Of a stretch of 64,000 bases of DNA, positions 21,009 to 34,255 are shown piece after piece (position 1 is the stretch's first letter; every line of letters begins with the position of its first letter). Position numbers and translations under genes: made by a program. The stretch is from NCBI RefSeq assembly GCF_003730275.1, contig NZ_QTTA01000010.1, positions 1-64,000 of the forward strand, given 5' to 3'. Below the pieces are notes generated by a model. It searched no databases, had not been told where the DNA came from, and worked only from the letters and a program-made list of their open reading frames with translations. Origin of the DNA: Brevundimonas halotolerans (lineage in GTDB: Bacteria > Pseudomonadota > Alphaproteobacteria > Caulobacterales > Caulobacteraceae).

Positions 21009-21128
21009 CTTGCCAGCAATGCTGTGTGTCTGGCCTCCTTGCCCCACCCACCCCTCATCCCTAAGTCCCTGAGACGACGGAGCGACCCGCTCTGCAGCAC
21101 CCCTTTTCACCCTGTTTTCGCCGGAGCG

Positions 21129-21313
21129 GATTTCAGACGGTTCAGACGGTTCAGACCCTTTTTTTCCCACCGTCTGAATTCGGCACTGCCGCCGATTTCA
21201 GACCCTTCAGACGGTTCAGACGGTCTAATTTCACCGTCTGATTTCCGGACCGCCCCCGGTTTCAGACTATTCAGACCATTCAGACGGTCTTTTTTCACCG
21301 TCTGGTTCAGGAG
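21129..21313. repeat. Three ~64-bp tandem units of 9-bp-spaced TTCAGAC repeats with inverted partners
   Basis: The 312-bp gap before gor holds about 120 bp of unremarkable sequence, then three imperfect units starting at 21129, 21194 and 21258. Each carries three TTCAGAC heptamers at an exact 9-bp period (first unit at 21132, 21141 and 21150), a T-rich stretch, and an inverted CCGTCTGA copy (GTCTGAA at 21172-21178 in the first unit). Each unit can therefore form a hairpin with the T-tract in its loop. The last unit ends about 7 bp before the gor start. A fourth copy lies inverted at 33804-33844. Confidence 0.85.
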
Positions 21314-21319
21314 CCCCGA

Positions 21320-22720
21320 ATGCCCACGACCTACGACTACGACCTCTTCGTCATCGGTGCGGGCTCGGGCGGGGTGCGGGCGGCGCGGCTGACGGCCCTG
21401 TCGGGCAAGACGGTCGCCGTGGCCGAGGAGCACCGCGTCGGCGGCACCTGCGTCATCCGCGGCTGTGTGCCCAAGAAATTCATGGTCATGGCCTCCGAGG
21501 TCAGCCACGCGCTGGAAATCGCCGAGGGCTATGGCTGGAACATCGAGGGCGCGACCTTCGACTGGAAGCGCTTCCTCGAGGCCAAGGACGTCGAGATCGC
21601 CCGGCTGTCGGGCATCTATGTCGCCAATCTGGGCAAGGCGGGCGCCGAGCTGATCCACGGCCGCGCCCGGCTGAAGGACGCGCACACGGTCGAGGTCCTC
21701 AAGAAGGACGGCTCGGTCGACCGCACGGTCACGGCCGAAACCATCCTGATCGCCACCGGCGGCCGCCCCTGGGTGCCCGGGGACCTGCCGGGCATCGAGC
21801 ACGCCATCACCTCGGAAGAGGCCTTCCACCTGCCGGAACTGCCGAAGAGTATCCTGATCGCGGGCGGCGGCTATATCGCGGTCGAGTTCGCCGGCATCTT
21901 TGCCGGCCTCGGCGTCGAGACCACCCTGGTCTATCGCGGGCCCAACATCCTGCGCGGCTTTGACGATGATGTGCGCGCCCATCTGGCGGGCGAGATCGAG
22001 CGGCGCGGCATCAAGGTGGTGCTGGGCTGCCAGCATTCGTCGATCGAGAAAACCGCCGACGGCCTCGTCAGCCATCTCGAGAACGACATGAAGCTGACGA
22101 CCGAGGCCGTCATGTTCGCCACCGGCCGCACCCCCTACGTCAAGGGCTTGGGGCTTGAGGAGGCCGGCGTCGAACTGACCGAGGGCGGGGCGATCAAGGT
22201 CGACCAGTATTCGCGTACCAGCGTCGACAACATCTGGGCCATCGGCGACGTCACCGACCGCATCAATCTGACCCCCGTCGCCATCCGCGAGGCCGTCGCC
22301 TTCCACGAGACCCGCTACAAGGACAATCCCTCGTCGTTCGACTATGAGGCCGTCGCCACCGGCGTCTTCAGCCAGCCGCCGGTCGGGGTGGTCGGCCTCA
22401 GCGAGGCCGAGGCGCGGCGTCACTGCTCGAAGGGGGTGGACGTCTATCTGACCCGCTTCCGGCCCATGAAGACCGTCTTCGTCGGCTCGGACGAGCGGGT
22501 GCTGATGAAGCTGGTGGTCGATGCCGACACCCAACGCGTGGTCGGCGTCCACATCGTCGGCCCCGAGGCGCCCGAGATGATCCAGCTGGCCGCCATTGCG
22601 GTCAAGGCCGGCCTGACCAAGGCCCAGTGGGACGCGACCTGCGCCGTTCACCCGACGCTGGCCGAGGAACTGGTCACCCTGAAGGACAAACAGTCGGTCG
22701 CCGCGACCGCCGCCGAATAG
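21320..22720 (+). CDS. gor: Glutathione-disulfide reductase
   Basis: A 466-residue FAD/NADPH disulfide oxidoreductase that regenerates reduced glutathione. It has the FAD-binding VIGAGSGGVRAARL, the redox-active GGTCVIRGCVPKK (Cys44/Cys49), an NADPH Rossmann motif AGGGYIAVEFAGIFAGLG, the second FAD motif IWAIGDVTDR, and the dimer-interface HPTLAEE with the catalytic His-Glu. Length and motifs fit Gor rather than lipoamide or mercuric reductase. Its upstream region is the TTCAGAC repeat block, and a GGAG site precedes the ATG. Confidence 0.95.
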   Translation: MPTTYDYDLFVIGAGSGGVRAARLTALSGKTVAVAEEHRVGGTCVIRGCVPKKFMVMASEVSHALEIAEGYGWNIEGATFDWKRFLEAKDVEIARLSGIYVANLGKAGAELIHGRARLKDAHTVEVLKKDGSVDRTVTAETILIATGGRPWVPGDLPGIEHAITSEEAFHLPELPKSILIAGGGYIAVEFAGIFAGLGVETTLVYRGPNILRGFDDDVRAHLAGEIERRGIKVVLGCQHSSIEKTADGLVSHLENDMKLTTEAVMFATGRTPYVKGLGLEEAGVELTEGGAIKVDQYSRTSVDNIWAIGDVTDRINLTPVAIREAVAFHETRYKDNPSSFDYEAVATGVFSQPPVGVVGLSEAEARRHCSKGVDVYLTRFRPMKTVFVGSDERVLMKLVVDADTQRVVGVHIVGPEAPEMIQLAAIAVKAGLTKAQWDATCAVHPTLAEELVTLKDKQSVAATAAE

Positions 22721-32784: not shown

Positions 32785-33717
32785 TTAGCCGAAGTTGCTC
32801 TCGCTGGCGAATTGTTCCGACGCCTGACGGTATTCCTGTTGCATGCGCGACACGAGCTCGGCCACCGGCAGCACGTCATGCACGCCGCCCGACCCCTGAC
32901 CGGCGGACCAGACGGTTTTCCAGGCCTTGGCTTCATCGGCCATGTCCAGCTTGTGCTCTGGCAGGCTCTTGGGGTCGATGCCGTTCTCGATCAGCGAGGG
33001 CGTCAGGAAGTTGGCGGGAATGCCCGAGACGGCCGGCGTATAGGTGATGTCCGAAGCGCCGGCGTCGACGATCATCTGCTTGTAAGCGCCCTGGGCCATG
33101 GACTCCGTCGTCGAGATGAAGCGGGTGCCCATATAGGCGAAGTCGGCGCCCAGCATGCGGGTGGCGGCGATGTCGCGCCCGGTCGACAGACAGCCTGACA
33201 GGATCAGGGTGTCGTCAAAGAAGCTGCGCACCTCCTCGATCAGGGCAAAGGGGTTGACCACACCGGCATGACCCCCCGCGCCATTGGCCACCAGAATCAG
33301 GCCGTCGACCCCGGCTTCGGCGGCCTTTCGTGCATGGCGGACATTGGCGATGTCGTGGAAGACCACCCCGCCATAGCCGTGCACCGCATCGACCACATCG
33401 CGAACCGCGCCCAGCGAGGTGATGATCAGCGGCACCTGTTCCTCGACCGAGACCATCATATCGGCCATCAGGCGGGGGTTGGTCGGATGGACGATGTGGT
33501 TGACCCCGAACGCAGCGGCATCGGGCTTGAGCCGCGCCTTGATGGCGTGCAGCCACTCCCGATAGCCCTCGGTCGTGCGCTGGTTCAGCGACGGAAAGGT
33601 GCCGATGACGCCGGCATTGCAGGCCTCGACCACCAGATCCGGCCCGGAGACCAGAAACATGGGCGCCGCAATCACCGGCAGCTTCAGCCCCTTTTGCAGG
33701 GACGCGGGAATGGTCAT
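32785..33717 (-). CDS. Nitronate monooxygenase (2-nitropropane dioxygenase family)
   Basis: A 310-residue FMN-dependent TIM-barrel enzyme oxidising toxic alkyl nitronates such as propionate-3-nitronate. It shows LPVIAAPMFLVSGPDLV at the N-terminus, GANGAGGHAG-type flavin/active-site loop (LVANGAGGHAGVVNPF), LSGCLSTGRDIAATRMLGADFAYMGTRF and a helical C-terminus. The motifs match class II NMO-like proteins. Some family members act as enoyl-ACP reductases (FabK), but the length and the active-site histidine loop fit NMO better. Confidence 0.88.
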   Translation of the reverse strand: MTIPASLQKGLKLPVIAAPMFLVSGPDLVVEACNAGVIGTFPSLNQRTTEGYREWLHAIKARLKPDAAAFGVNHIVHPTNPRLMADMMVSVEEQVPLIITSLGAVRDVVDAVHGYGGVVFHDIANVRHARKAAEAGVDGLILVANGAGGHAGVVNPFALIEEVRSFFDDTLILSGCLSTGRDIAATRMLGADFAYMGTRFISTTESMAQGAYKQMIVDAGASDITYTPAVSGIPANFLTPSLIENGIDPKSLPEHKLDMADEAKAWKTVWSAGQGSGGVHDVLPVAELVSRMQQEYRQASEQFASESNFG

Positions 33718-33803: not shown

Positions 33804-33844
33804 GTGAAAAACACCGTCTGAACCGTCTGAATGGTCTGAAATCA
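33804..33844. repeat. Dispersed copy of the TTCAGAC repeat unit (inverted)
   Basis: On the reverse strand this is one unit of the block found at 21129-21313: three TTCAGAC heptamers at a 9-bp period (complement at 33816-33822, 33825-33831 and 33834-33840) next to an A/T tract. It lacks the opposing CCGTCTGA arm. It lies at the start of a 608-bp region without genes (33718-34324). Confidence 0.8.
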
Positions 33845-33995
33845 TGGTGGCGGCCCTCCGGCGATGTCGGCAACCGGACAGTATCGGTGATGCGTGAGCC
33901 AGGGCAGGAAGACCGGTCCGGGAAACGGCGGGCCCGTTGAAAGGGAGGGGGAATTCGGGGGCGGCCATCGTAGCTGAGGGTGTCGGCTCAGCAGT

Positions 33996-34140
33996 CCTTC
34001 TCCCCTCGGGGGAGAAGGTGTCGGGCAGAGCCTGACGGATGAGGGGGAGCCTGCCACGGACGGACCCGGTCAGCGCGCGTCCAGTGGCCCCCTCATCCGA
34101 GCCGCTGTCGCGGCCCACCTTCTCCCCCGAGGGGAGAAGG
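33996..34140. repeat. 145-bp palindromic intergenic element with 25-bp perfect terminal inverted repeats
   Basis: The 25-bp end at 33996-34020 (starting CCTTCTCCCC) is the exact reverse complement of 34116-34140, and each end is itself nearly self-complementary. Inside, GGATGAGGGGG (34037-34047) pairs with CCCCCTCATCC (34088-34098). No open frame of note lies within. It looks like the mobile or REP-like palindromes scattered in intergenic regions of alphaproteobacteria. The rest of 33845-33995 shows nothing I can name. Confidence 0.8.
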
Positions 34141-34152
34141 GAGCAGAAAGAG

Positions 34153-34255
34153 GTTCATCACAAAGAACACAGAGGAGGCACGAAGAACACAACGAAGGCA
34201 GCGGGCTCGACCTCGTTGTGTCCTATGTGGAAGCGTTGTGGTCGCTGTGATGAAC
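34153..34255. repeat. 103-bp imperfect inverted-repeat element upstream of queF
   Basis: GTTCATCACA at 34153-34162 pairs perfectly with TGTGATGAAC at 34246-34255. Inside, AACACAACGAAGG-like and CCTCGTTGTGT-like segments pair imperfectly, so most of the element can fold into one long stem. It directly abuts the preceding 145-bp palindrome. It has no coding capacity and may be a miniature inverted-repeat element or a structured leader for queF, whose start is 70 bp downstream. Confidence 0.6.

Follow-up and report, generated by a model that had tools for sequence, protein, structure and literature searches.

Brevundimonas genomes carry a genus-wide family of short tandem arrays in which GAC recurs every 9 bp and is followed by a run of T, and which lie 3′ of predicted promoters. 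The window, meaning the whole stretch of DNA that was analyzed, comprises 64,000 nucleotides of a 2.54-Mb genome of Brevundimonas halotolerans (G000). Three units stand upstream of gor, at 21132–21178, 21197–21241, and 21261–21304, with repeat periods of 65 and 64 bp; each holds TTCAGAC three times at steps of exactly 9 bp, which bears out both the coordinates and the phasing reported in the initial annotation, then a T-rich tract (only TCTAATTT in unit 2) and an inverted partner (CCGTCTGAA, CCGTCTGAT, or CCGTCTGG). Across the window, TTCAGACNNTTCAGAC with at most two mismatches was matched 10 times, eight of them exactly, against 0.14 matches in shuffles. The features are as follows; those with no other basis given were read directly from the sequence.

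21039..21067, + strand: predicted gor promoter, TTGCCC, 17 bp, TAAGTC; a similar block precedes gor whether or not a species has the array
21132..21156, + strand: unit 1 array, TTCAGAC three times in 9-bp steps, linkers GG and GG
21159..21165, + strand: unit 1 T-run
21170..21178, + strand: unit 1 inverted partner, CCGTCTGAA
21197..21221, + strand: unit 2 array, linkers CC and GG
21234..21241, + strand: unit 2 inverted partner, CCGTCTGA
21261..21285, + strand: unit 3 array, linkers TA and CA
21290..21295, + strand: unit 3 T-run, whose end lies 24 nt upstream of the start codon of gor
21298..21304, + strand: unit 3 inverted partner, CCGTCTG
21309..21313, + strand: predicted gor ribosome site, AGGAG
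21320..22720, + strand: gor, glutathione-disulfide reductase (TIGR01424, 700 bits, above cut-off)
32785..33717, − strand: gene 3′ of the fourth array, loosely named FabK-like enoyl-ACP reductase (TIGR03151, 92 bits, below the cut-off of 453)
33807..33811, − strand: fourth-array T-run
33816..33840, − strand: fourth array, TTCAGAC three times, linkers CA and GG
33869..33881, − strand: CTGTCCGGTTGCC, a block upstream of arrays in G000 (7 exact genome copies, all at arrays)

The promoter block ahead of gor was likened to the Caulobacter-type consensus; a strict scan of the gor leader with the E. coli consensus found no promoter. A fourth unit had also been noted elsewhere, and its array and T-run are indeed present at 33807–33840 on the minus strand, but the CCGTCTGA partner is missing. 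Just past this fourth array, a palindromic repeat (TTCTCCCCTCGGGGGAGAAGG ... CCTTCTCCCCCGAGGGGAGAAGG), which resembles the palindromic inserts seen between arrays at other loci, occupies 33985–34140; a CACAAAGAACACAAAGAAGG tandem repeat comes next, at 34159–34200.

Genome-wide, the TTCAGACNNTTCAGAC pair was matched exactly 89 times in G000 and not once in the reversed control. Our own clustering of these matches gave 24 loci (22 outside the window and two inside), containing 38 arrays with between 2 and 7 heptamers each. The array search was made without requiring T, and the T-run was scored afterwards: TTT lay within 11 nt 3′ of 33 of the 38 arrays, TTTT of 25, and the exact GGTRTTTT of 18, whereas TTTT lay within 11 nt 5′ of none of those arrays outside the window. 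The proposal that the units form a family therefore held well beyond the two loci at which it would have been given up, with 24 loci in G000, members genus-wide, and a 9-bp spacing that recurs across the genus. The TTCAGAC pair was present in 53 of 101 genus genomes, and a wider pattern (GAC three times at 9-bp steps, with TTTT four bases on) in 80 of the 101, with 816 matches versus 31 in the reversed control; 41 genomes had at least 10 matches and 21 had none. In 159 genomes from 21 other genera of the family, the same pattern gave 37 matches versus 63 in the control, and the array family is thus confined to the genus at the search sensitivity used. Arrays were found in records of B. vesicularis, B. 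alba, B. aurantiaca, B. diminuta, B. lenta, B. viscosa, and B. poindexterae (L084, G285), and array places in genomes G007 and G043 were the same as in the B. aurantiaca and B. alba records, respectively. Rfam 15 gave no matches above the gathering threshold in 14 kb of the window plus 20 loci of two species, and no description of such arrays was found among the titles and abstract openings of open-licence papers, a body of literature in which absence is weak evidence.

TTCAGAC is the commonest repeat word across the genus, and other words (ATTAGAC, ATCGGAC, AGTGGAC, GATCGAC, TCAAGAC) occupy most loci of some lineages; the bases before GAC are TTA in B. vesicularis, ATCG in B. aurantiaca, AGTG in G270, GATC in G269, and TCAA in G277. 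Among 15 genomes with several matches, words differed within a genome at 0.48–2.13 of six bases in 10 and were mixed (2.95–3.31 of six) in five (G271, G275, G283, G284, G286), compared with 3.59 of six between genomes, so that the words are coherent in most, not all, genomes examined. The four bases before GAC were invariant in 58 G000 units, which had been selected by TTCAGAC, whereas the two bases after GAC varied (entropy 1.48 and 1.29 bits); in 29 B. poindexterae units, selected by GAC and T alone, the four bases had an entropy of 0.22 bits at one position and 0 elsewhere. In these two genomes, the unit is a fixed heptamer with a free 2-base linker; heptamers of B. aurantiaca and B. alba were less strict. 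The period had been described as not codon-neutral, which needs reversing since 9 bp is exactly three codons; a coding peptide was nevertheless rejected, as some genomes have words containing TGA or TAG and the three units ahead of gor lie in different frames.

Neutral minisatellites, in which slippage alone would keep the repeats uniform, would account for the fast change in copy number, both in the 2 to 7 heptamers per array and in the two or three units at gor among close relatives. Slippage cannot make one word common to unlinked loci, however, the period recurs across the genus, and the heptamer stays constant while adjoining bases vary; this reading is disfavored and highly improbable.

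The gor leader allows the words to be compared at one locus. Named records supplied 80 gor loci, of which 31 had strict-pattern arrays, with four degenerate-looking arrays (L101, L103, L118, L147) counted as "none" in the presence counts and the gor-tree analysis. The T-run nearest gor ends 13–30 nt upstream of the start codon in all 30 measured leaders of the 31, irrespective of the word, and a TAA[AG]T box precedes the first GAC by 40–42 bp in 14 leaders spanning three words, by 32 and 52 bp in two others, and was not found in 15. For 16 of 18 genomes (G278 and G280 were dropped for want of a strict gor array or of a search-pattern match), the gor word was compared with words elsewhere after the gor string had been removed once from the own-genome list, three of the 16 having no such string to remove. 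It differed at a mean of 1.77 of six inter-GAC bases from loci of its own genome versus 3.02 of six from other gor arrays. Own-genome loci were closer than the average gor array of other genomes in 12 of 16 genomes; they were closer than even the nearest gor array in four (G269, G270, G272, G277), all with derived words, and in 12 of 16 the gor array of another genome was equally close or closer. Genomes that share TTCAGAC naturally have the same word at gor. In four genomes (G275, G281, G283, G286), the gor word does not follow its own genome. By eye, and unscored, arrays at ribE (L077, L215, L234), yaiI (L050, L225), murG (L066, L202), and scoA likewise carry the word of their own genome in different species.

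On the gor tree, array presence requires 13 changes, at least seven of them forced by strong branches. TTCAGAC is scattered over 24 of the 80 rows and seven other words occupy one row each, for which reason TTCAGAC is probably the ancestral word and some lineages probably switched word in place. One gor locus (L158) lies on a contig labelled Pseudanabaena biceps, a cyanobacterium, and its gor falls inside Brevundimonas on the tree; this contig is probably contamination.

Regulatory words normally stay constant while genes diverge, since many sites pin one reader. Here, the same leader can carry different words in related species, and in several derived-word lineages each word fits its own genome, an unusual situation whose cause would be either a fast-changing reader or repeated rewriting of the sites by a mobile element. 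We lean tentatively, and at less than even confidence, toward the arrays being transcribed docking platforms for a putative sequence-specific, co-evolving reader. An array lying 3′ of a predicted promoter would be transcribed into RNA, on which a trans-acting reader, probably multimeric and most likely an RNA-binding protein, would dock with an occupancy set by repeat number and linker. The docked reader would tune the transcript, and at gor it may act via the predicted hairpin beside the ribosome site, with a change in gor expression as the outcome. The reader is proposed to be multimeric because selection by such a protein would be expected to keep the heptamer constant, leave the linker free in sequence but not in length, and let copy number vary; similarly, co-evolution with one reader is suggested by words that change at the majority of loci in a lineage, that at gor among them, the word shift of a lineage then reflecting that co-evolution. 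Among the options raised in the initial annotation, putative binding sites for a cooperative protein appear, from sequence, to fit best. The broader version of this proposal, a genus-wide regulatory code rewritten per lineage, in which dozens of arrays per genome, at conserved positions such as the gor leader, would switch word together under a single putative fast-changing reader (protein or guide RNA), is doubtful; if true, the rewritten code would parallel, in bacteria, the rapidly evolving zinc-finger/hotspot systems. The words predict whose species' extract should bind which array, which makes either cause easy to test.

A gene caller, trained on the window, was used to place 61 array loci from three genomes in their gene context. 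The T-run side lay a median of 85 bp before a gene start or 30 bp from a convergent stop, and the opposite side ∼290 bp from a gene. Genes after arrays included, by profile, gor, argC, ribE, murG, yaiI, and scoA, plus one more named loosely (10 proteins). The next gene was co-directional with the array in 35 cases and opposed in 26, an orientation that is about random, which means that many arrays cannot be plain mRNA leaders. The 26 opposed arrays point at a convergent gene, whose 3′ end lies a median of 30 bp away (10th–90th percentile 4–62, range −7 to 318), and some have promoter-like upstream blocks, as would be expected of multi-copy small-RNA genes (promoter, short leader, array, U-run) whose RNAs serve as reader decoys with gor-type leaders as targets. 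Such genes are quite improbable, since a stable hairpin generally does not stand directly before the T-run, making termination doubtful, and no RNA family was matched in the 14 kb and 20 loci scanned.

Promoter-like sequence was assessed with a hand-made matrix over 144 elements, a set that includes related genomes, some of them twice, and from which exact copies alone were removed. The array strand had the higher score in 111 of the 144 and the lower in 32; scores of at least 8 were reached by 57 on the array strand versus 16 on the other strand and 18% of random stretches. In G000, all seven exact copies of CTGTCCGGTTGCC sit just upstream of arrays (reversed control, 1), and in a looser form the block CCGTTCT..CCCGACC..CATACTGTCCGGTTGCC lies 38–54 bp before the array at 12 of 24 loci. 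Larger blocks are shared among eight aligned loci of G043 and nine of G007, some rows being partial. In B. aurantiaca and B. alba, GGTCTTTGA lies 44–149 bp upstream of the first array at 9 of 20 loci (e.g., L205, L212, L219) and 8 of 17 loci (e.g., L220, L231), respectively, often directly behind a TATAAT-like box, and resembles the boxA of ribosomal-RNA antitermination; its genome-wide counts in the two species (28 vs. 20 and 35 vs. 10 in controls) indicate that it is not exclusive to arrays.

A shared upstream block is also what a small non-autonomous dispersed repeat (MITE- or REP-like) with its own promoter-like block would leave behind, each lineage acquiring its own word through its own expansion. 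The fixed spacing of the block at 12 of the 24 G000 loci and the larger blocks of G043 and G007, the about random orientation to genes, and the mixed words in 5 of 15 genomes keep this reading alive, and the 13 presence changes on the gor tree (at least seven forced) and the palindromic inserts flanked by arrays add to it. The comparison with the close relative B. poindexterae points the other way: in a comparison of strict-pattern loci run from the B. poindexterae side, 10 of its 11 array loci matched G000 array loci, with aligned flank segments 78–94% identical, and one had no partner among the G000 loci compared; copy number and inserts differed. Within strict-pattern loci, this speaks against rapid mobility. 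A clean empty site with a target-site duplication, as looked for in a MITE, was not found, 10 of the 11 compared loci being occupied in both genomes, and IS200-type (Y1, PF01797) transposases, the one type searched, occurred in 3 of 101 genus genomes and not in G000; a Y1 transposase was accordingly rejected as the driver, being absent from 98 of 101 genomes. The distance between the gor array and the start codon is, moreover, kept while the word differs. Dispersal of this kind is possible though rather doubtful. As for the mobile hairpin element suggested in the initial annotation, the matched loci, the scarcity of Y1 transposases, and a hairpin that is not general all weigh against it, although mobility over longer time scales may still apply.

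The hairpin itself was assessed first at gor, where the last repeat is predicted to pair with bases 3′ of the T-run. Stem scores averaged 6.94 versus 5.24 for swapped arms (SD 0.27, maximum 6.15 of 1000 permutations); stems of at least seven pairs formed in 22 of 31 leaders versus 32% of swapped arms, and stems of at least five in 28 of 31, yet also in 75% of swapped combinations. In ten related leaders (eight distinct), seven pairs were kept in 100% of cells, and five of the seven vary, always via G-U on one side. Pairing fell to 0–50% in a slid control; a shuffle control is uninformative for this hairpin, since no pair changes on both sides. Over the 144 elements, the own downstream arm was better than other arms at p ≤ 0.05 in 26, and array plus downstream side folded with a mean z of −0.61, compared with −0.67 for the preceding 80 bases. 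Because the pairing signal is weak over these elements, the hairpin is a local feature, not what defines the array family. The RNA-level switch that had been considered finds its evidence in the gor leader only, where one clade shows conserved pairing with wobble-type changes confined to one side; across the 144 elements, array plus downstream side had no folding advantage over the 80 preceding bases. Inverted partners, reported for each unit, are real at the three gor units, but the exact GTCTGAA partner occurs at only 3 of 24 loci genome-wide. Two further candidates were rejected: upstream anti-repeats, striking in six B. aurantiaca copies, are weak overall (upstream-side pairing at p ≤ 0.05 in 14 of 144), and terminators were found at one site versus 0.7 in shuffles.

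Variation of the wobble type, as seen in one clade's gor hairpin, is the mark of an RNA, and it counts against DNA operator arrays, in which a transcription factor or nucleoid protein would bind 9-bp direct repeats as a roadblock or insulator 3′ of promoters. So do the 3′ T-run, the promoter-like score on the array strand, and a period of 9 bp, which is not one helical turn and would place adjacent proteins on rotated faces. The heptamer with its 2-bp linker and fixed period does resemble tandem half-sites, and random gene orientation suits a DNA mark; we regard such operators as unlikely.

The docking-platform reading has partial counterparts among known systems. TRAP (trp RNA-binding attenuation protein) reads G/U-AG triplets a few bases apart and controls a few trp genes; the arrays share with TRAP leaders tandem short repeats for a multimeric protein (putative here) and a hairpin near the ribosome site, but have a 9-nt period, dozens of loci, and a lineage-dependent word. 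The GGA motif of CsrA/RsmA is widely conserved and is repeated in CsrB-type decoy RNAs and in leaders, a comparable use of a short repeated motif; unlike in CsrB/RsmZ decoys, where GGA recurs in loops, GGA is absent from TTCAGAC, a word that changes from species to species, although GGAC does occur in some of the others. REP/BIME elements with RAYT are likewise dispersed and intergenic, and an inverted partner is found here at some loci; the arrays differ in their tandem 9-bp period, in a hairpin that is not general, and in the lack of a Y1 transposase in G000. A REP-type palindrome was not found in every copy, an exact partner being present at 3 of 24 G000 loci and the own arm being better in 26 of 144 elements. 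Type III toxin-antitoxin RNAs place long tandem repeats before a toxin gene, whereas these repeats are 9 nt and the profile-named next genes (gor, argC, ribE, murG, yaiI, scoA) are not toxins.

Caulobacter CIR repeats, from a related genus, are also dispersed and intergenic; they are ∼110 bp long with two arms, carry GANTC, and show high conservation between species (Chen and Shapiro 2003, via PMC2229807). The arrays are instead tandem nonamers of changing word, with GANTC inside 2 of 38 arrays in G000, 2 of 27 in G007, 15 of 18 in G043 (B. alba), and 5 of 14 in G285. The CCGTCTGAA nonamer, with 114 copies in G000 versus 9 for the reversed control, matches the Neisseria DNA uptake sequence GCCGTCTGAA at 9 of its 10 bases (PMC1852404). 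Uptake signals generally number at least 1,000 per genome, and Neisseria favors the opposite hairpin order (PMC1852404). With 114 copies only and a word that varies by species, the arrays depart from an uptake sequence, which would be a single word in hundreds to thousands of copies per genome, and the likeness is probably due to chance, because the word is a different one in other species of the genus.

Intergenic palindromes as long as ∼200 bp, repeats of the CCCCTCTCC...GGAGAAGG and CACCTCCCC...GGGGAGG types, were seen by eye directly behind one array and ahead of a second at L032, L034, L038, L045, L047, and L049 in G000 and at L268, L269, and L272 in B. poindexterae. At the orthologous site L038/L272, each species has a different type of palindromic insert, and the arrays look like favored landing sites for such repeats. 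In B. alba, arrays at L220, L228, L231, and L236 were seen by eye to be flanked by a segment resembling CAAAACC on one side and a GTTTTACCCGGGTAAAAC-like palindrome on the other, and could occupy the loop of a stem.
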